Shown one piece after another: positions 1 through 6,267 of a DNA stretch of 6,267 nucleotides. Both the position numbers and the translations under genes were made by a program. Position 1 is the first letter of the stretch; each line of letters begins with the position of its first letter. The notes below the pieces were generated by a model, which had not been told where the DNA came from, did no database searches, and worked only from the letters and a program-made list of their open reading frames with translations. Source of the DNA: Polaromonas sp. (GTDB taxonomy: Bacteria; Pseudomonadota; Gammaproteobacteria; Burkholderiales; Burkholderiaceae_C); contig JAJAYS010000362.1 of the NCBI GenBank assembly GCA_026786065.1, forward strand, positions 1-6,267. Direction: 5' to 3'.

Positions 1-1454
1 GCGCCAGCCCGACCGCGGCCACCAGCGCGGCGACCGCGCCGCCGCACCTGCTGGTGGTGGACGACGACGCCGACATGCTGCGGCTGCTGACGATCCGCCT
101 CAGCGCAGCGGGCTACCGGGTCAAGGCCGTCACCTCGGCCGAGGCCGCACTGACCGAGTTGCACGTCGAGCGACCGCAACTGGTGCTCAGCGACGTGCGC
201 CTCCCCGGCCGCGACGGCTTGGCGCTGTTCGACGACATTCGCGCCGCCCACCCGTCGCTGCCGGTGATTTTGCTGACGGCCCACGGCACCATTCCCGATG
301 CGGTGCAGGCCACCGAGCGCGGCGTTTTCACCTACCTGACCAAACCCTTCGACGGCAAGGCGCTGCTCGACAAGATCGCCCAGGCGCTGGCGCTGAGCGC
401 GCCCGTCACGGCGGCGGTGCGCGGCAGCCCGCAAGCCTGGCAAAACCAGATCGTCAGCCGTTCCAGCCGCATGGCCGAGGTGCTGGCGGAAGCACGCATG
501 GTGGCGCAGTCGGACGCCAGCGTGTTGATTCGCGGCGAAAGCGGCACCGGCAAAGAGTTGCTCGCGCAGGCCATTCACTTGGCCGGAAGCCGCGCCGCGC
601 AGCCCTTCATTGCCGTCAATTGCGGCGCGATTCCCGAGGCGCTGCTCGAATCCGAGCTGTTCGGCCATGTCAAGGGCGCCTTCACCGACGCCAAGAACAA
701 CCACGAAGGCCTGTTTCAGGCAGCCAGCGGCGGCACGCTGCTGCTTGACGAGATCGGCGACATGCCGCCCGCGCTGCAGGTGAAGCTGCTGCGGGTGCTG
801 CAAGAGCGCGTCGTGCGGCCACTGGGTTCAAGCCAGTCGATTCCGGTCGATGTGCGGGTGATCTCGGCCACCCACCGCGATCTGGACCAGGCGATGGCCG
901 AAGGCCAGTTCCGGGCCGACCTGTATTACCGGCTAAACGTTGTCACGCTGACGCTGCCGCCATTGTCGGAGCGGCGCGAAGACATCGCGCTGCTGGCCAA
1001 CCATTTCCTGCACAAGCTCGCCAGCAAGTACAACACGCGGCTGAGCGGCTTTGCGCCCGAAGCGCTGAAGGCGCTGACGACCGCCGCCTGGCCCGGCAAT
1101 GTGAGGCAGCTCTACAACGTCGTCGAGCAGGTCTGCGCGCTGCTGACGACGCCGCTGGTGCCGTTGGCGCTGGTGCAGCGCGCCTTGCGCTCGCCCAGCG
1201 TGCAGGTGCTCACCTTCGCCGATGCGCGCCAGCGCTTCGAGCGCGATTACCTGGTCGGCCTGCTCAAGCTGACCGATGGCAATGTTGCGGATGCAGCCCG
1301 GCTGGCGGACCGGAACCGCACCGAGTTTTACCGGCTGATGCAAAAGCACGGCCTGACGCCGGGCCACTTCAAGCCCGACACCCTGGCCGGCGCGCCGTCA
1401 CCGGCTTCCCCCGCAGGTCCTCGCCGCCCGGACGCCCAAGACCACGCTGCCTGA
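1..1454 (+). CDS. glrR: GlrR/QseF-type sigma54-dependent response regulator (5' end outside window)
   Basis: This is an NtrC-class transcription activator that, when phosphorylated by its partner kinase (GlrK in enterobacteria), uses ATP to open sigma54-RNA polymerase promoters. The frame is open to the left edge (first whole codon at base 3). GTG at 54 lies inside the first beta strand (LLVVDDD), so the true start is upstream. Numbering from base 54: receiver domain 1-115 with acidic residues D3-D5, phospho-acceptor D47, T75 and K97; AAA+ domain about 133-370 with Walker A GESGTGKE (161-168), Walker B LLLDE (229-233), arginines R287 and R293 in FRADLYYRL, and WPGNVRQL (346-353); Fis-type helix-turn-helix 408-434 containing RNRTEFY. 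From memory, E. coli GlrR aligns along the whole length and shares that recognition-helix core. Two oddities: the sigma54-contact loop reads GAFTDA rather than GAFTGA, and a Pro/Ala-rich tail of about 25 residues extends past the usual end. The general class is certain; the GlrR assignment is strong. Confidence 0.88.
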   Translation, partial: ASPTAATSAATAPPHLLVVDDDADMLRLLTIRLSAAGYRVKAVTSAEAALTELHVERPQLVLSDVRLPGRDGLALFDDIRAAHPSLPVILLTAHGTIPDAVQATERGVFTYLTKPFDGKALLDKIAQALALSAPVTAAVRGSPQAWQNQIVSRSSRMAEVLAEARMVAQSDASVLIRGESGTGKELLAQAIHLAGSRAAQPFIAVNCGAIPEALLESELFGHVKGAFTDAKNNHEGLFQAASGGTLLLDEIGDMPPALQVKLLRVLQERVVRPLGSSQSIPVDVRVISATHRDLDQAMAEGQFRADLYYRLNVVTLTLPPLSERREDIALLANHFLHKLASKYNTRLSGFAPEALKALTTAAWPGNVRQLYNVVEQVCALLTTPLVPLALVQRALRSPSVQVLTFADARQRFERDYLVGLLKLTDGNVADAARLADRNRTEFYRLMQKHGLTPGHFKPDTLAGAPSPASPAGPRRPDAQDHAA

Positions 1455-1495
1455 CACCCCGTCGCAAAAGGGGAGCGCTGGCCACGTCGAATTGC

Positions 1496-1513
1496 CGTCG
1501 CTGCACAGCGACA
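1496..1513. promoter_or_regulatory. Candidate GlrR operator 1 (one mismatch)
   Basis: CGTC-N10-GACA differs in one base from TGTC-N10-GACA, the motif I recall for GlrR sites at E. coli glmY. It shares 14 of 18 bases with site 2, differing only in the four central bases (GTCGCTG-N4-GCGACAA, 1497-1514 and 1562-1579). Its centre lies about 204 bases before the predicted opgG transcription start, within the usual range of sigma54 enhancers. The wider sequence can also fold into a hairpin (TTGCC 1492-1496 with GGCAA 1515-1519, and GTCGCT with AGCGAC inside). An alternative role as a weak glrR terminator is possible, but no good T-run follows. Confidence 0.5.
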
Positions 1514-1516
1514 AGG

Positions 1517-1529
1517 CAAGTGCTTGATT
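1517..1529 (-). promoter_or_regulatory. Candidate IHF site between GlrR sites 1 and 2
   Basis: CAAGTGCTTGATT fits the reverse complement of the IHF consensus WATCAANNNNTTR at every fixed position. The side of the site where IHF usually contacts AT-rich DNA (1530-1544) is AT-rich in an otherwise GC-rich region. IHF bends DNA so that an upstream-bound activator can touch sigma54 polymerase, and IHF is known to assist the E. coli glmY promoter. The consensus is short and degenerate, so position is the main support. Confidence 0.45.
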
Positions 1530-1560
1530 GTTAAAGGTATTTTTCATCTGCGCAAAATTT

Positions 1561-1578
1561 TGTCGCTGTCTGGCGACA
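1561..1578. promoter_or_regulatory. Candidate GlrR operator 2 (exact TGTC-N10-GACA)
   Basis: The sequence matches TGTC-N10-GACA exactly and is the core of a longer inverted repeat: TTTGTCGC (1559-1566) and GCGACAAA (1573-1580) are perfect 8-base arms around six bases, extended by AAA/TTT outside. With equal base use, an exact match is expected about 0.004 times in a region of this size. It lies about 139 bases before the predicted opgG transcription start. The neighbouring gene encodes a GlrR with the same recognition-helix core as the E. coli protein, so binding by the adjacent regulator is the simplest reading. Confidence 0.65.
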
Positions 1579-1614
1579 AATTTCGGGTGAAAACCCTGAT
1601 TTTTGAAGAATCGG

Positions 1615-1632
1615 TGCCATAAAGGCTGGACA
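1615..1632. promoter_or_regulatory. Candidate GlrR operator 3 (one mismatch, weak)
   Basis: TGCC-N10-GACA matches the GlrR motif at 7 of 8 fixed bases and is centred about 85 bases before the predicted start. Unlike sites 1 and 2 it has no extended palindrome around it. A one-mismatch hit is expected by chance roughly 0.1 times in this region, so alone it is weak. It is listed because E. coli glmY also carries, as I recall, three GlrR sites. Confidence 0.3.
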
Positions 1633-1650
1633 CCCGACAAAAAACGTGCC

Positions 1651-1663
1651 CAAGCGCTTGATC
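1651..1663 (-). promoter_or_regulatory. Candidate IHF site between GlrR sites and promoter
   Basis: CAAGCGCTTGATC fits the reversed IHF consensus except for the last base (C in place of A/T). It sits between the proposed activator sites and the -24/-12 promoter, the place where IHF normally acts at sigma54 promoters. Its first ten bases are a perfect palindrome (CAAGCGCTTG), so it could instead bind a dimeric regulator. Confidence 0.35.
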
Positions 1664-1682
1664 TACAAGCAGATTTTGACTC

Positions 1683-1697
1683 TGGCACAGGGTTTGC
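1683..1697 (+). promoter_or_regulatory. sigma54 (-24/-12) promoter of opgGH
   Basis: TGGCACAGGGTTTGC contains the -24 element TGGCAC and the -12 element TTGC separated by exactly five bases, so the invariant GG (1684-1685) and GC (1696-1697) have the required ten bases between them. With C1697 at -12, transcription would start near 1709, directly before the opgG ATG at 1710. A sigma54 promoter needs an activator such as the GlrR encoded immediately upstream, and candidate GlrR sites precede it. TTGACT at 1676-1681 resembles a sigma70 -35 element, but no matching -10 follows at normal spacing. Confidence 0.72.
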
Positions 1698-1709
1698 CCC
1701 ACATCCGGG

Positions 1710-3296
1710 ATGTCCCTTCGAATTCCGATTTTCAAGTGCTACTCCGCAAGCCCTGCCCGAAGCCTGCTCACCGCCTTTCTTGCTATTTCTTTTGCAGCAC
1801 TGAGCCACGCAGCAGCGTCGCAAACGCAGCCCGCCTGGAGTTTTGAGGAGCTTGCCGCGCTGGCGCAAAAGCGCGCCCAGGCGGCGTTTTCGGCGCAGAC
1901 CAAACCACTCCCGGCCGAACTGGCCAACCTCGATTACGACGGATACCGCGACATCCGCTACAACCGCGATGCGCCGCTATGGCGCGCCGGCAAACTGCCC
2001 TTCGAGGCCAACTTTTTTCACGTCGGCCGCGAGGTGCTGCCGGTGCGCATCAACGAAGTCGTCGGCGGCGTGCCGCGCCGGATGCGCTACAACCCAGCCG
2101 ACTTCAACTTCGGCAAGAACACGCTGAACCCGCAAAACTGGGGCGACCTCGGCCACGGCGGCCTGCGTATTTTTAGTAACGTCAACGGTCCCGACGTCAA
2201 GGACGAGGCCGCGGTGTTTCAGGGCGCGAGTTATTTCCGCGCACTCGGTGCCGGGCAACGCTACGGCCTGTCGGCACGCGGCCTGGCGGTGGACACGACC
2301 GGCCCAAAGGAAGAATTCCCGACCTTCACCGAATTCTGGCTCGAACGCCCGGCGGCCGACGCGACCCGCGTGACGGTCTATGCCCTGATGGAATCGCAGC
2401 GCATGACCGGCGCCTACCGCTTCGACATCACGCCGGGCCAGCAGACCACCACCGACGTCCGGGCCCGGCTTTTCATGCGCGCCGGCCAACCTCTGATCAG
2501 GACGCTCGGCGTGGCGCCTCTGACCAGCATGTTTTTGTTCGGTGAAAACCAGCCGCAGCGCAGCGACTTCAGACCCGAGGTACATGACTCCGACGGTCTG
2601 ATGCTGGCCACCGGCGACGGCGAATGGCTGTGGCGACCCCTGCAAAACCCGGCTGCCCCGCTGACCACCTCGTTCAGCATGAAAAGCCTCAAAGGCTTCG
2701 GCCTTATGCAGCGCGACCGCAGCTACGGCAACTACGAAGACACCGAGGCGCGCTACGAACTGCGCCCTTCAGCCTGGGTCACGCCGGTCGGCGATTGGGG
2801 TCCGGGCAGGGTCGAGCTGTTCCAGTTTCCGATTCCGGACGAGACGCACGACAACGTCGCCGCCTACTGGGTGCCCGAAAAAATGCCGGCGCCGGGCGAG
2901 GCGCTGGAACTGGCCTGGCGCGTGTCCTGGCAAGGCAAAAACCAGCAGCTCCCGCCCAACGGCTACGTCACGCAATCCCGGCGCGGCAACGGCTTCATTC
3001 CGGCCAACAAGGACGGCTCGCTGCCGCCCAACCAGCCGACCCAATTCACCGTCGATTTCGCCGGACCGGCGCTCGACGCCTTGCTTGAGGACGCACCGGT
3101 CAAGGCGATTGCGACCGCCGACGCCAATGGCCGGATCGTCGAAGCCCTCGCCTACAAGAACCCGGCCAACGGCCACTGGCGCATGACGCTGCGGCTGCAG
3201 CGCACCACGCCAACGCAGCCGGTCGAGCTGCGCGCATTTTTACAGCACGGCGGCAATGCCGTCAGCGAAACCTGGACTTACCTGGTCACACCATGA
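1710..3296 (+). CDS. opgG: Periplasmic glucan biosynthesis protein OpgG (MdoG)
   Basis: OpgG is the periplasmic partner of OpgH in making osmoregulated periplasmic glucans, beta-1,2-linked glucose chains that help with osmotic adaptation and envelope integrity. OpgG/OpgD proteins have been shown to be beta-1,2-glucanases (family GH186). The 528-residue product, slightly longer than E. coli MdoG (511), aligns with it over its full length, including INEV (115-118), GASYFR (172-177), YGLSARGLA (185-193), GVAPLTSMFLFG (267-278), GEWLWRPL (304-311) and LRPSAWVTP (351-359). D381 in DETHDN aligns with E. coli D361, which I recall as the catalytic acid. A Sec signal peptide is visible: basic residues up to R18, a hydrophobic stretch 19-31, and likely cleavage after HAAA (about 36). 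ATG 1710 is the only usable start between the in-frame stop at 1677 and the signal peptide. No Shine-Dalgarno is visible. The gene overlaps opgH by four bases. OpgD is the alternative name, but the opgH partner favours OpgG. Confidence 0.95.
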   Translation: MSLRIPIFKCYSASPARSLLTAFLAISFAALSHAAASQTQPAWSFEELAALAQKRAQAAFSAQTKPLPAELANLDYDGYRDIRYNRDAPLWRAGKLPFEANFFHVGREVLPVRINEVVGGVPRRMRYNPADFNFGKNTLNPQNWGDLGHGGLRIFSNVNGPDVKDEAAVFQGASYFRALGAGQRYGLSARGLAVDTTGPKEEFPTFTEFWLERPAADATRVTVYALMESQRMTGAYRFDITPGQQTTTDVRARLFMRAGQPLIRTLGVAPLTSMFLFGENQPQRSDFRPEVHDSDGLMLATGDGEWLWRPLQNPAAPLTTSFSMKSLKGFGLMQRDRSYGNYEDTEARYELRPSAWVTPVGDWGPGRVELFQFPIPDETHDNVAAYWVPEKMPAPGEALELAWRVSWQGKNQQLPPNGYVTQSRRGNGFIPANKDGSLPPNQPTQFTVDFAGPALDALLEDAPVKAIATADANGRIVEALAYKNPANGHWRMTLRLQRTTPTQPVELRAFLQHGGNAVSETWTYLVTP

Positions 3297-5350
3297 ACAC
3301 CATTCCGAACACCCAGAGCCCAAGCACCTCCTCCGGCACCTTCTCGTCCCGAGCGGGCCGCGATGCGGGGCTCGACGCACCGCACGGGCTGCCGGGTCGC
3401 AGCCAGCTGCGCGAGGAACGCCACCCGAATTCGGTCACCGCGCCGCCGGTCCACCGTGGTTCGATGGCGCCCCGGCCGTGGCGCGGCTTCTGGAATAGTG
3501 TCGGCAATGGGCTGTTGCTACCTTTCGTCAAAGGCCAGGCTGCAACGCAGTGCGGCGACGCCGACAGCGGGCCGCGGGAGCCCTGGCAGCACGCGGCGCG
3601 GCGCCGGCGCACAGTGTTCACTTTGCTGACCGTCATCAGCACGGTGCTGGCGACCGGTCTGTTCATCGACATGCAGCCAGACTACGACAACGCCTGGCTG
3701 CAGCACGGCCAGACGGCGCTGTTCTCCGTGTTGTCGGCCTGGGTCGTCAGCGGCTTCATGACCGCGATGATGGGTTTTTACGTCACACTGCGCGGCGACG
3801 CGCACAGCCTGTCGGCCAAAAAAGTAGCCCACCACAAGCTGGACCCGGCGACGCGCACGGCCATCATCATGCCGATTTGCAATGAAGACGTGCGCACCGT
3901 TTTTGCAGGCCTGCGCGCCACCTGCGAGTCGCTCGCGCTGACCGGCCACCCCGGCCAGTTCGACGTTTTCGTGTTGTCGGACACCGGCAATCCGGGCCTG
4001 CAAAAGGCCGAGCACGCCGCTTGGGAAGCGCTGCGGGCGCAGCTGGCCAGCCAGACCGACCAACCACAGGTCGAGGTTTATTACCGGCTGCGCCAGCGCC
4101 GCACCGACCGCAAGGCCGGCAACGTCGCTGACTTCTGCCGGCGCTGGGGCAAGGACTACAAATACATGGTGGTACTGGACGCCGACAGCGTGATGAGCGG
4201 CGACTGCCTGATTGCGATGACCAAGCTGATGGAAGCCAACCCGAAGGCCGGCATCATCCAGACCGCCACCCAGGCGATCGGCCATGTGACGCTGCATGCA
4301 CGGGCCCAGCAGTTCGCCTCGCGCGTCACCGGCCGGCTGTTTACGCTGGGCATGCAGTACTGGCAGATGGGTGAGTCGCACTACTGGGGTCATAACGCGA
4401 TCATCCGGATCGAGCCTTTCATGCAGCACTGCGCGCTGGCACACATCGAAGGCAGCGGCGGAATGGCCGGCAGCATCATGTCGCACGACTTTGTTGAAGC
4501 GGCACTGATGCGCCGCGCCGGTTACCACGTGTGGCTGGTCGGCGATCTGGTCGGCAGCTACGAGCAGCAACCGCCCGACCTGCTGGCCGAGTTGCAGCGC
4601 GACCGCCGCTGGTGCCAGGGCAACCTGCAGAATTCGCGGCTGATCGTCGAGCCCGGCATTCATGCGGTGCACCGCTCGATGTTTGCGACCGGCGCGATGG
4701 CGTATCTGTCGGCTCCGCTGTGGCTGTGCTTCATGACGCTGGGCACCGCGCTGTGGCTGTCGGGTTCGCCGATGGTGTCCGACTGGAATCTGGTGCCGGG
4801 CGAGCTGATTTCGCTGTGGGCCTGGACGCTGTGCATGCTGTTTTTGCCGCGCATTCTGGGCCTGACGGCAATCCTGATCAAACGCGAGCAGGCTTCCTAC
4901 GGCGGCACGCTGGGCTTGTTGCGCAGCGCCTTGCTTGAAACACTGATCGCGCTGCTGCAAGCGCCGCTGCGGATGCTGGCGCACTCATTATTCGTTGTGG
5001 TCGCGCTGACTGGACTGAAGCTGGAATGGAAGTCGCCGCCGCGCGAAGCCGCCGCAGTGCCGTGGCGCCATGCGCTGCGCCAGTTGGCTCCTATGAGCTT
5101 GGTGGTGATGGCGCTGGCGATTGGCATTGCATGGATCGACGTCAGTGCGCTGACCTGGTTGCTGCCAGTGGGCCTTCCGCTGATCCTGGCGATTCCGATG
5201 ACAGTGCTGACCAGCAAGGTCGGCATTGGCACCGCGATGCGGGCGCAGCAGTTCCTGCTAATTCCGGAAGAGACCAAGTCGCCGGCGGTGCTGCGTCGCG
5301 CCTGGCTGCACTCCAGCCAGAGTAAGACGCCGCAGCTGCGGGCGGCCTGA
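3293..5350 (+). CDS. opgH: Glucan glucosyltransferase OpgH (MdoH)
   Basis: OpgH is an inner-membrane GT2-family glucosyltransferase that builds the beta-1,2-glucan backbone from UDP-glucose and is thought to pass it to the periplasm, where OpgG acts. The cytoplasmic N-terminus (1-105) keeps the family motif SMxPxPWR (58-64). Membrane segments lie near 108-126 and 142-165. The catalytic domain (about 185-460) shows MPICNEDV (193-200), LSDTGNP (228-234), VLDAD (294-298), ESHYWGHNAI (361-370), SHDFVEAALMRRAG (397-410) and the QxxRW motif QRDRRW (435-440). Further membrane segments lie near 466-490, 503-527, 550-575 and 600-640. The ATG overlaps the opgG stop (ATGA, 3293-3296) with no clear Shine-Dalgarno, which points to translational coupling. 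At 685 residues it is much shorter than E. coli MdoH (847): it ends about 27 residues after FLIPEE and lacks the long C-terminal cytoplasmic region, as in some other short OpgH forms. Confidence 0.95.
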   Translation: MNTIPNTQSPSTSSGTFSSRAGRDAGLDAPHGLPGRSQLREERHPNSVTAPPVHRGSMAPRPWRGFWNSVGNGLLLPFVKGQAATQCGDADSGPREPWQHAARRRRTVFTLLTVISTVLATGLFIDMQPDYDNAWLQHGQTALFSVLSAWVVSGFMTAMMGFYVTLRGDAHSLSAKKVAHHKLDPATRTAIIMPICNEDVRTVFAGLRATCESLALTGHPGQFDVFVLSDTGNPGLQKAEHAAWEALRAQLASQTDQPQVEVYYRLRQRRTDRKAGNVADFCRRWGKDYKYMVVLDADSVMSGDCLIAMTKLMEANPKAGIIQTATQAIGHVTLHARAQQFASRVTGRLFTLGMQYWQMGESHYWGHNAIIRIEPFMQHCALAHIEGSGGMAGSIMSHDFVEAALMRRAGYHVWLVGDLVGSYEQQPPDLLAELQRDRRWCQGNLQNSRLIVEPGIHAVHRSMFATGAMAYLSAPLWLCFMTLGTALWLSGSPMVSDWNLVPGELISLWAWTLCMLFLPRILGLTAILIKREQASYGGTLGLLRSALLETLIALLQAPLRMLAHSLFVVVALTGLKLEWKSPPREAAAVPWRHALRQLAPMSLVVMALAIGIAWIDVSALTWLLPVGLPLILAIPMTVLTSKVGIGTAMRAQQFLLIPEETKSPAVLRRAWLHSSQSKTPQLRAA

Positions 5351-5403
5351 GCGGGGGTTAAGGCGCGCGCTATGAAATAAGTAGCTTAAAAAACCCTTTG
5401 ATA

Positions 5404-5432
5404 TTGCGCGTTGGGCCTGCTTGGCGCATAAA
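5404..5432 (+). promoter_or_regulatory. Weak sigma70-like promoter candidate before the kinase gene
   Basis: TTGCGC (5404-5409) and CATAAA (5427-5432) are 17 bases apart, the ideal sigma70 spacing, in one of the few AT-rich parts of the 5351-5589 gap. The -35 matches only three of six consensus bases and the -10 four of six, so support is modest. If real, the leader before the ATG at 5590 would be about 150 bases and would include the inverted repeat at 5494-5511. Confidence 0.22.
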
Positions 5433-5493
5433 AAGTGCCCCGTGTCTCTGCTGTTGTTTTGTGGCCCGGTTACTATGGCGCCGGCCGTCCGAT

Positions 5494-5511
5494 GCGGGTC
5501 TAATGACCCGC
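5494..5511. repeat. Perfect inverted repeat upstream of the kinase gene
   Basis: GCGGGTC and GACCCGC are perfect 7-base arms around TAAT. In RNA this would form a stable hairpin with a four-base loop; in DNA it resembles a dimeric regulator's operator. It is about 80 bases before the kinase ATG. No T-run follows, so it does not look like an intrinsic terminator. Apart from this and the weak promoter candidate, I see nothing identifiable in the 5351-5589 gap. Confidence 0.5.
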
Positions 5512-5589
5512 CCTCCCCGGGAAGTTGCGCAGCCCCACCGCTGCGTCGTGCCATCCAACCCAGGCCCGGCCCTGCGCCGGCCTTGCCTC

Positions 5590-6267
5590 ATGAAACTTTC
5601 CCAATTCATCACCGCCCACCTGGACGAAATCCTGTTGGAGTGGGACCGTTATGCCAAGACCCTGTTCTCCGCTGGCACATCGGATCTCATCCTGCGCGAC
5701 CATGCCAAGGCGATGCTGCAGAACCTGGTGCGGGACATCGAAACCAACCAGACCGCCGGCGAGCAAATCGAAAAATCGAAGGGCCAGGCCAACGACGAAA
5801 TTGACCGGGGCAGTGCCGCCTCGGTGCACGGCACGCTCCGGCACTCGAGCGGCTTCACGCTGATCCAGCTCACCTCGGAATATCGCGCCCTACGGGCTAC
5901 CGTGATCCGCCTGTGGCTGGCACGACAGAAACTTCGAGATGAAGAGGTCGTCAACGACATGACCCGTTTCAACGAGGCGATCGACCAGGCGCTGGCCGAA
6001 TCGGTGGTGACCTTTTCCGAAAGCGCTGACCGCACCCGCGACACCTTTCTGGCGATTCTGGGGCATGACCTGCGCAGCCCGCTTTCCACCATCTCGATGG
6101 CTGGACGCTATTTCACCCGCATCGTCGGCGGCAGCCTCGGCACGCAGCAGATGGGCGCGCGGATTTCCCGCAGTGCCGCCACCATGAGCGCAATGGTCAA
6201 CGACTTGCTGGAATACGCCCGCACCCAGCTTGGCGGAGGCATTCCGCTGACGCGCCGCCAGATGGAC
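5590..6267 (+). CDS. Sensor histidine kinase with RsbRD_N-like N-terminal region (3' end outside window)
   Basis: The frame from ATG 5590 stays open for 226 codons to the right edge, so the gene is truncated by the window. The product begins MKLSQFITAHLDEILLEW, which looks like an RsbRD_N-type all-helical sensor region (about 5-145) of the sort found in RsbR-like stress proteins and in soluble kinases. It has no signal peptide or membrane segment, so the kinase is probably cytoplasmic. A HisKA dimerisation and phospho-acceptor region follows, with H-box LGHDLRSPL (157-165), H159 as the predicted phosphorylated histidine, and the second helix ending near NDLLEYAR (204-211). The ATP-binding HATPase domain would lie past the edge. 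No Shine-Dalgarno precedes the ATG. A GTG at 5548 in the same frame would add unconserved residues, so 5590 is preferred. Its ligand and response-regulator partner cannot be told from the window. Confidence 0.85.
   Translation, partial: MKLSQFITAHLDEILLEWDRYAKTLFSAGTSDLILRDHAKAMLQNLVRDIETNQTAGEQIEKSKGQANDEIDRGSAASVHGTLRHSSGFTLIQLTSEYRALRATVIRLWLARQKLRDEEVVNDMTRFNEAIDQALAESVVTFSESADRTRDTFLAILGHDLRSPLSTISMAGRYFTRIVGGSLGTQQMGARISRSAATMSAMVNDLLEYARTQLGGGIPLTRRQMD

Follow-up and report, generated by a model that had tools for sequence, protein, structure and literature searches.

A conserved, probably GlrR-dependent sigma54 promoter module before the periplasmic glucan genes opgGH in Polaromonas and related Burkholderiales

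In a Polaromonas sp., a conserved sigma54 promoter module appears to precede the periplasmic glucan biosynthesis genes opgGH, and phosphorylated GlrR, encoded just upstream, would very probably switch on opgGH through this module. The DNA analyzed here, referred to as the window, is the 6,267-nucleotide stretch at positions 1 to 6,267 of the forward strand of contig JAJAYS010000362.1 (GCA_026786065.1). Between glrR and opgG, two predicted upstream activating sequences (UAS1 and UAS2) lie at enhancer distance from a predicted -24/-12 element (Table 1), and at least two UAS at such a distance would characterize a GlrR-dependent sigma54 promoter. We infer direct GlrR control of opgGH from this arrangement, and the idea is strongly supported by comparison.

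The motifs named in a preliminary description of this DNA largely held up. A motif scan recovered the TGTC-N10-GACA palindrome without mismatch at UAS2 and with one mismatch at UAS1, and the correctly spaced promoter matched TGGCAC-N5-TTGC exactly. The GlrR motif named there is the same as the consensus printed in excerpts of two papers (PMC8745638; PMC4987338), from which the UAS consensus used here was taken. The two palindromes have 13 of 18 bases in common rather than the 14 claimed, differing at positions 1, 9, 10, 11, and 12.

Conservation and geometry of the module

By the statistics of the window alone, the UAS and promoter motifs are weak: five UAS matches with at most one mismatch occur against 1.78 expected (8 of 200 shuffles reached five), and promoter matches with at most two mismatches number seven against 11.2 expected. 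A UAS-like match at 1615-1632 with one mismatch has no counterpart at that place in relatives and was dropped as a probable chance match. The pattern of a UAS and a promoter 80-110 bp apart is found a single time in the source genome (83.6% complete), and its reversed form is absent there. Searched without any condition on the genes, the UAS-promoter pattern was found in 26 of 399 genomes order-wide (1 of 399 for the reversed control) and in 63 of 300 genomes family-wide (control, 3 of 300). Conservation is the deciding evidence that the motifs are real.

For a first locus set, one genome per GTDB species was searched for GlrR relatives, and the best 80 of 473 were retained (L011-L090), which gives 81 loci with the window. 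The retained relatives comprise Polaromonas, Rhodoferax, Variovorax, Hydrogenophaga, Acidovorax, Xylophilus, and unnamed kin. The UAS-promoter site is present in 79 of the 81 loci, and the two without the module are one where glrR has no opg neighbor (L019) and one where the contig ends (L086). The order-wide and family-wide searches yielded 87 loci with the exact pattern: 47 have glrR upstream and opg downstream, two have opg without adjoining glrR, nine have glrR with another gene, and 29 have neither. One of the 29 is a BON gene locus (L104), and the rest either match by chance or are targets of other activators. These 29 and nine non-opg loci (38 in all) were excluded from a larger set of 158 loci, which consists of 120 loci with distinct segments (left of 130 after removal of L019, L086, and eight identical segments) and 38 singly fetched loci. 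Also left out were L230, whose genome has no opgH match, and L240, a glrR-adjoining stretch that falls short of the promoter; the right stretch for the latter genome (L294) carries the module. UAS1 with at most two mismatches is present in all 158 opg loci, as is the -24/-12 element with at most one mismatch, which was a precondition of that scan.

A sample of 300 genomes of the family contains GlrR in 97 (E ≤ 1e-130), OpgH in 109 (E ≤ 1e-100), and both in 84. In 80 genomes, the glrR and opg genes lie on the same strand no more than 6 kb apart and count as linked, and G673, where the glrR contig ends inside opgH, brings the number to 81; in G486, G627, and G575 they are unlinked or on separate contigs. 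L268, with opgH on a separate contig, is counted within the 158 loci and outside the 81. All 81 glrR-linked opg loci have the module, 43 of them with the exact pattern. The other 38 were recovered by a relaxed scan and follow-up, with small deviations at the usual spacing in 23, a shorter spacing in 14, and, in one (G464, L294), the module about 1.6 kb from glrR in front of opgG. The scan settings were of our own choosing (score threshold 4 and UAS2-promoter spacing 60-140) and were reused for the genomes without GlrR and for the shuffles. The module was found in none of 950 Markov shuffles of the 38-locus set and, on either strand, in none of 25 opgH loci from genomes without a GlrR match at E ≤ 1e-130, an incomplete control in which at least 1 kb 5' of opgG is covered in 15 loci, no opgG was found next to opgH in nine, and one locus is cut off within opgG by the end of its contig. 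The preliminary description had named a lack of conservation in relatives as grounds for giving up the idea, and the linked loci and the loci without GlrR gave the opposite result, in counts of kin that are not independent events.

The UAS2-promoter spacings of the 158 loci fall only at 78-82, 91-92, 101-104, 110-114, and 121-123 bp, five classes that are separated by about one helical turn and leave the intervals between them empty, in a scan that accepted any distance of 60-140 and imposed no period. Phase coherence at 10.5 bp was 0.87 across the 158 loci and 0.81 across 67 greedy representatives, and 20,000 uniform draws reached at most 0.47; because related sequences are not independent, these figures describe the pattern and are not probabilities. 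The five-step helical ladder could serve as a natural experiment on enhancer looping. The distance between UAS1 and UAS2 is 65-69 bp in 136 loci, 77-79 bp in 16, and 85-91 bp in six, and is 65 bp in the window.

Two IHF-type sites, absent from the preliminary description, were added here using what we take to be the IHF consensus. The first, in the UAS1-UAS2 interval, matches this consensus with one mismatch or none in 139 of the 158 loci, where shuffles gave about 4.6. The second, for which the whole UAS2-promoter stretch was scanned, has at most one mismatch in 118 of the 120 distinct loci (about 11 of 120 in shuffles) and is located 31-32 bp 5' of the -24 box in 113 of the 118 matching loci. 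Consensus-like predicted IHF sites are found between the UAS and the promoter, at places matching those of Escherichia coli glmY.

The start codon at the predicted transcription start

The opgG ATG of the window begins 12 bases past the C of the -12 GC, which the preliminary description had missed, and in E. coli glmY the 5' end, as annotated, is likewise 12 bases past the -12 C. Because the ATG sits at the offset of the annotated glmY 5' end, the opgG mRNA is predicted to be leaderless, and by this analogy a leaderless transcript is likely. Leaderless mRNAs exist in a proteobacterium, where all start with AUG according to an excerpt of one study (PMC3616915). An ATG at offset 11-14 is found in 134 of the 158 loci (108 at 12 and 26 at 11, 13, or 14) and at all 79 sites of the first set, and in none of 34 other sigma54-like matches of the same first-set loci. 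Of the first-set ATGs, 55 share the reading frame of opgG, nine share that of opgH in loci where a search showed no opgG, and one belongs to a locus that has no opg match.

Alternatively, GlrR-sigma54 control could be real and the opgG mRNA leadered, with the ATG near +1 supplying a favored CA initiator and the main message arising by read-through or from another start. C at offset 11 and A at offset 12 are indeed common among the 120 distinct loci (102 and 105, respectively), and several BON-domain targets of the module, described below, have their ATG about 60-90 bases downstream. Moreover, several counts speak against a leaderless message: 24 of the 158 loci have no ATG at 11-14 (one has a GTG at 12 and 23 have neither), 14 of the 79 first-set ATGs are out of frame with the opgH match and open a short open reading frame (ORF), and later start candidates are present in 46 of the 64 in-frame loci, the ATG being the sole candidate before the conserved domain in the remaining 18. 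On the other hand, the CA is also followed by T (104 of 120) and G (99 of 120), the ATG is in frame with no intervening stop in 64 of the 79 loci, and a Shine-Dalgarno-like 4-mer occurs 5' of the ATG in only one of the 79. In the window itself, there is no later in-frame ATG, GTG, or TTG before the conserved domain of opgG. A leadered message is unlikely on these grounds, if far from negligible, and a leaderless opgG transcript is retained as the preferred prediction.

A group of Variovorax-type loci (L064, L065, L067-L072, L074-L077, L081, L094, L169-L171, and L174) has no opgG before opgH, and in these loci the conserved ATG near +1 opens an ORF of 65-68 codons before opgH. The codon-position pattern of this ORF shows little coding constraint, which likewise does not favor translation from the ATG at +1. 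Because of this weak codon-position bias, the short ORF is perhaps a leader and not a protein gene. The genome of L068 encodes an OpgG relative, 38% identical, at another place.

The regulator and the ownership of the sites

The window GlrR has receiver and Sigma54_activat domains (Pfam), and its best NCBIfam match is GlrR at 605.5 bits, about 195 bits ahead of other families (107 compared). Aligned with E. coli GlrR over 445 positions, it shows 57% identity. This alignment agrees with the preliminary description in that the helix-turn-helix core RNRTEFY of the recognition helix is identical in the two proteins, and an NRTEFY-type core is present in all 80 loci L011-L090. The source genome also encodes rpoN (sigma54).

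Three further points, beside the kinship of the loci and the incomplete control noted above, weigh against GlrR control. Firstly, the score of the window protein is below the curated NCBIfam cut-off for the GlrR equivalog (763), as is that of the Polaromonas JS666 GlrR locus (621.6 bits), and glrR of the window is for this reason regarded as encoding a GlrR-type regulator, not a certified equivalog. Secondly, the sigma54-contact loop reads GAFTDA, not GAFTGA, in 77 of the 81 loci (window and L011-L090); GAFTGA is kept in E. coli, L108, and six BON-linked GlrR loci (L101, L102, L103, L105, L143, and L149). Thirdly, the source genome contains nine Sigma54_activat matches, of which six are strong. 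Given these nine matches, and since the E. coli site and the helix-turn-helix are the sole basis for the binding specificity, a different sigma54 activator might bind the palindromes and fire the promoter. However, none of the 25 opgH loci from genomes without a GlrR match has the module, the module adjoins glrR even in loci that have a BON gene or opgH downstream in place of opgG, and UAS2 (TGTCGCTGTCTGGCGACA) differs by one of 18 bases from an E. coli glmY UAS (TGTCGCTTTCTGGCGACA). Control by another activator is thus improbable.

Three genomes (G1058, G486, and G627) also have the module in front of opgGH although their glrR is not adjacent. In G1058, a metagenome assembly, the glrR contig (L019) has no opgGH and no sites 3' of glrR, where unrelated genes follow. 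The opgGH genes of this assembly follow an aldehyde dehydrogenase gene (Pfam, 519 bits) on a separate contig and are preceded by both UAS, one IHF-type site, the promoter, and the ATG. In G486, the module and opgG are about 50 kb from glrR, and in G627 they are on a different contig from it. Because the module accompanies opgGH away from glrR, we assign the sites to opgGH, and they would act in trans. That the palindromes serve glrR as a terminator or in autoregulation, with opgGH a mere neighbor, is hardly credible: they are located 3' of the glrR stop codon and one terminator-like stem occurs at 1583-1599 (0.4 expected), but opgGH of G1058 keeps the whole module without adjoining glrR and none is found 3' of glrR there, G486 and G627 carry it before opgG away from glrR, and termination offers no obvious role for a -24/-12 element at helical spacing.

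Under GlrR control of opgGH, the signal could originate in the envelope. The relative L018 has, 5' of glrR, a histidine kinase gene and a gene for a weakly QseG-like lipoprotein (21.1 bits with an NCBIfam cut-off of 234, and 19.6 with a Pfam cut-off of 27), and qseE-qseG-qseF clusters occur in Betaproteobacteria according to an excerpt of PMC12691602. A kinase and lipoprotein of this kind may sense the state of the envelope and phosphorylate GlrR, which would bind UAS1 and UAS2, while IHF may bend the DNA twice and bring GlrR into contact with the sigma54 polymerase at the -24/-12 element. Transcription would start at A1710 or within a base or two, opgG would be translated from the 5'-terminal AUG of a leaderless mRNA, and translation of opgH could be coupled to it through the ATGA overlap of the two genes. 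Firing of the envelope sensor would then lead to more periplasmic glucan.

We lean, with slightly better than even confidence, toward a wider interpretation, in which a portable sigma54 module with its +1 fused to a start codon allows GlrR to drive glucan synthesis across a large group of Burkholderiales, turning envelope stress into a leaderless opgG/opgH mRNA. The module would stay in place without opgG or away from glrR, and the comparable modules at glmY, BON, and EF-hand genes would represent one regulator with an exchangeable neighboring envelope target. If true, the GlrK-QseG-GlrR system would, outside the enterobacteria and without the GlmY small RNA (sRNA), have the direct synthesis of an envelope polymer as an output, and leaderless translation would be linked to a defined envelope signal by a sigma54 promoter that has the start codon at +1.

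Known systems, other targets, and features of the window

The preliminary description saw in this layout the logic of E. coli glmY transferred to opgGH, and the order of elements (UAS, IHF, UAS, IHF, -24/-12, and +1) is indeed the same. The glmY gene is under QseF control with the assistance of IHF, as stated in an excerpt of PMC6075780. In addition to the match of 17 of 18 bases at UAS2, the two UAS are 63 bp apart in glmY and 65 bp apart in the window, the IHF sites are at matching places (the first perfect, and the second with one mismatch and in opposite orientation), and the annotated +1 has the offset of the window's ATG from the -12 C. On the other hand, glmY yields an sRNA and is located upstream of glrK, whereas the window has a protein operon downstream of glrR with a start codon at the predicted +1. 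Moreover, glmY has a third exact UAS match, and its UAS2-promoter spacing is 107 bp compared with 122 bp in the window.

A second E. coli GlrR-sigma54 target, rpoE (excerpt of PMC6075780), is likewise related to the envelope, but there the target is a sigma factor and opgG is reached indirectly. A table in the consulted part of PMC10100675 gives GlrR among the regulators of E. coli rpoE and RpoE as a regulator of opgG. Since this indirect GlrR-RpoE-opgG route is in print, a direct route is more plausible and slightly less novel. The preliminary claim that glucans are an undescribed GlrR target therefore stands for a direct link, as none between GlrR/QseF and opgG, opgH, or periplasmic glucans was found in the excerpts of the open-licence literature searched, and needs to be qualified for the indirect route implied by that table. 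Among the matches listed, only PMC10100675, as far as its excerpt goes, names genes of both the regulator and the glucan sides. Word searches of two genome-wide sigma54 comparisons returned no opgG, mdoG, or glucan and two occurrences of QseF in one (PMC3162934), and none of six regulator or glucan words in the other (PMC12316311). GlrR, QseF, and opg go unmentioned in the excerpt of an sRNA paper that deals with a sigma54 activator of Bordetella. The region upstream of opgG in E. coli has no such module. In Dickeya, opgC is controlled through RcsCDB and EnvZ/OmpR (excerpt of PMC4726272), which resembles the present case in that envelope sensors govern a periplasmic glucan gene, but the regulators and the gene are different.

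In other Burkholderiales, BON-domain genes (Pfam) are located at the glrR-adjoining module in L101, L102, L103, L105, and L143, and BON passes its cut-off in these five and in L104. L149 resembles the BON loci and is probably one of them; the nine loci with glrR and without opg are completed by L100, L107, and L148, which have no assignment. In the wider class, EF-hand or BON genes are found at the module with glrR in the locus (L182, L183, L196, and L203), and EF-hand genes at such sites without a glrR match in the stretch (L190, L199, L200, and L202). The EF-hand cut-off is passed in L182, L190, L199, L200, and L203 and failed in L183, L196, and L202, and L183 has a clear BON domain. Because the class-wide pattern search is noisy (26 of 377 genomes compared with 10 of 377 for the reversed control), the case for EF-hand targets is built on Pfam and, in L182, L183, L196, and L203 only, on glrR in the locus. 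The BON and EF-hand products at this promoter arrangement are small, and many are encoded beside glrR.

Several loci have related patterns. L097, L156, and L168 show TGTCAC-N6-GTGACA-type palindromes with sigma54-like promoters 5' of secreted-looking proteins; the set in L097 adjoins a protein resembling another sigma54 activator, and the three loci are possibly targets of another activator. In L092, L112, and L116, variants of TGTC-N10-GACA with other inner bases accompany a sigma54-like promoter, and the downstream genes of L092 and L112 look like acyl-CoA synthetases by eye.

Table 1. Coordinates of genes and predicted regulatory elements in the window
Feature	Position	Strand	Remarks
glrR (response regulator with sigma54-interaction domain)	3..1454	+	3' part; 5' end outside the window
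UAS1, predicted GlrR site, CGTCGCTGCACAGCGACA	1496..1513		1 mismatch to TGTC-N10-GACA
Predicted IHF site 1, CAAGTGCTTGATT on the + strand	1517..1529	-	Consensus-like
UAS2, predicted GlrR site, TGTCGCTGTCTGGCGACA	1561..1578		Exact TGTC-N10-GACA
Predicted IHF site 2, CAAGCGCTTGATC on the + strand	1651..1663	-	Consensus-like
Predicted sigma54 promoter -24/-12, TGGCACAGGGTTTGC	1683..1697	+	Exact TGGCAC-N5-TTGC
Predicted transcription start and opgG start codon	1710..1712	+	ATG 12 bases past the -12 C
opgG (mdoG), periplasmic glucan biosynthesis	1710..3296	+	PF04349, 593.5 bits
opgH (mdoH), glucosyltransferase	3293..5350	+	NF003960, 1236.9 bits, cut-off 829; ATG overlaps the opgG stop as ATGA at 3293-3296

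An Rfam scan of the window gave no family at threshold. A histidine kinase gene begins in the region 3' of opgH (5590-6267), and the N-terminus that it encodes weakly resembles RsbRD_N, with a score below the Pfam cut-off.

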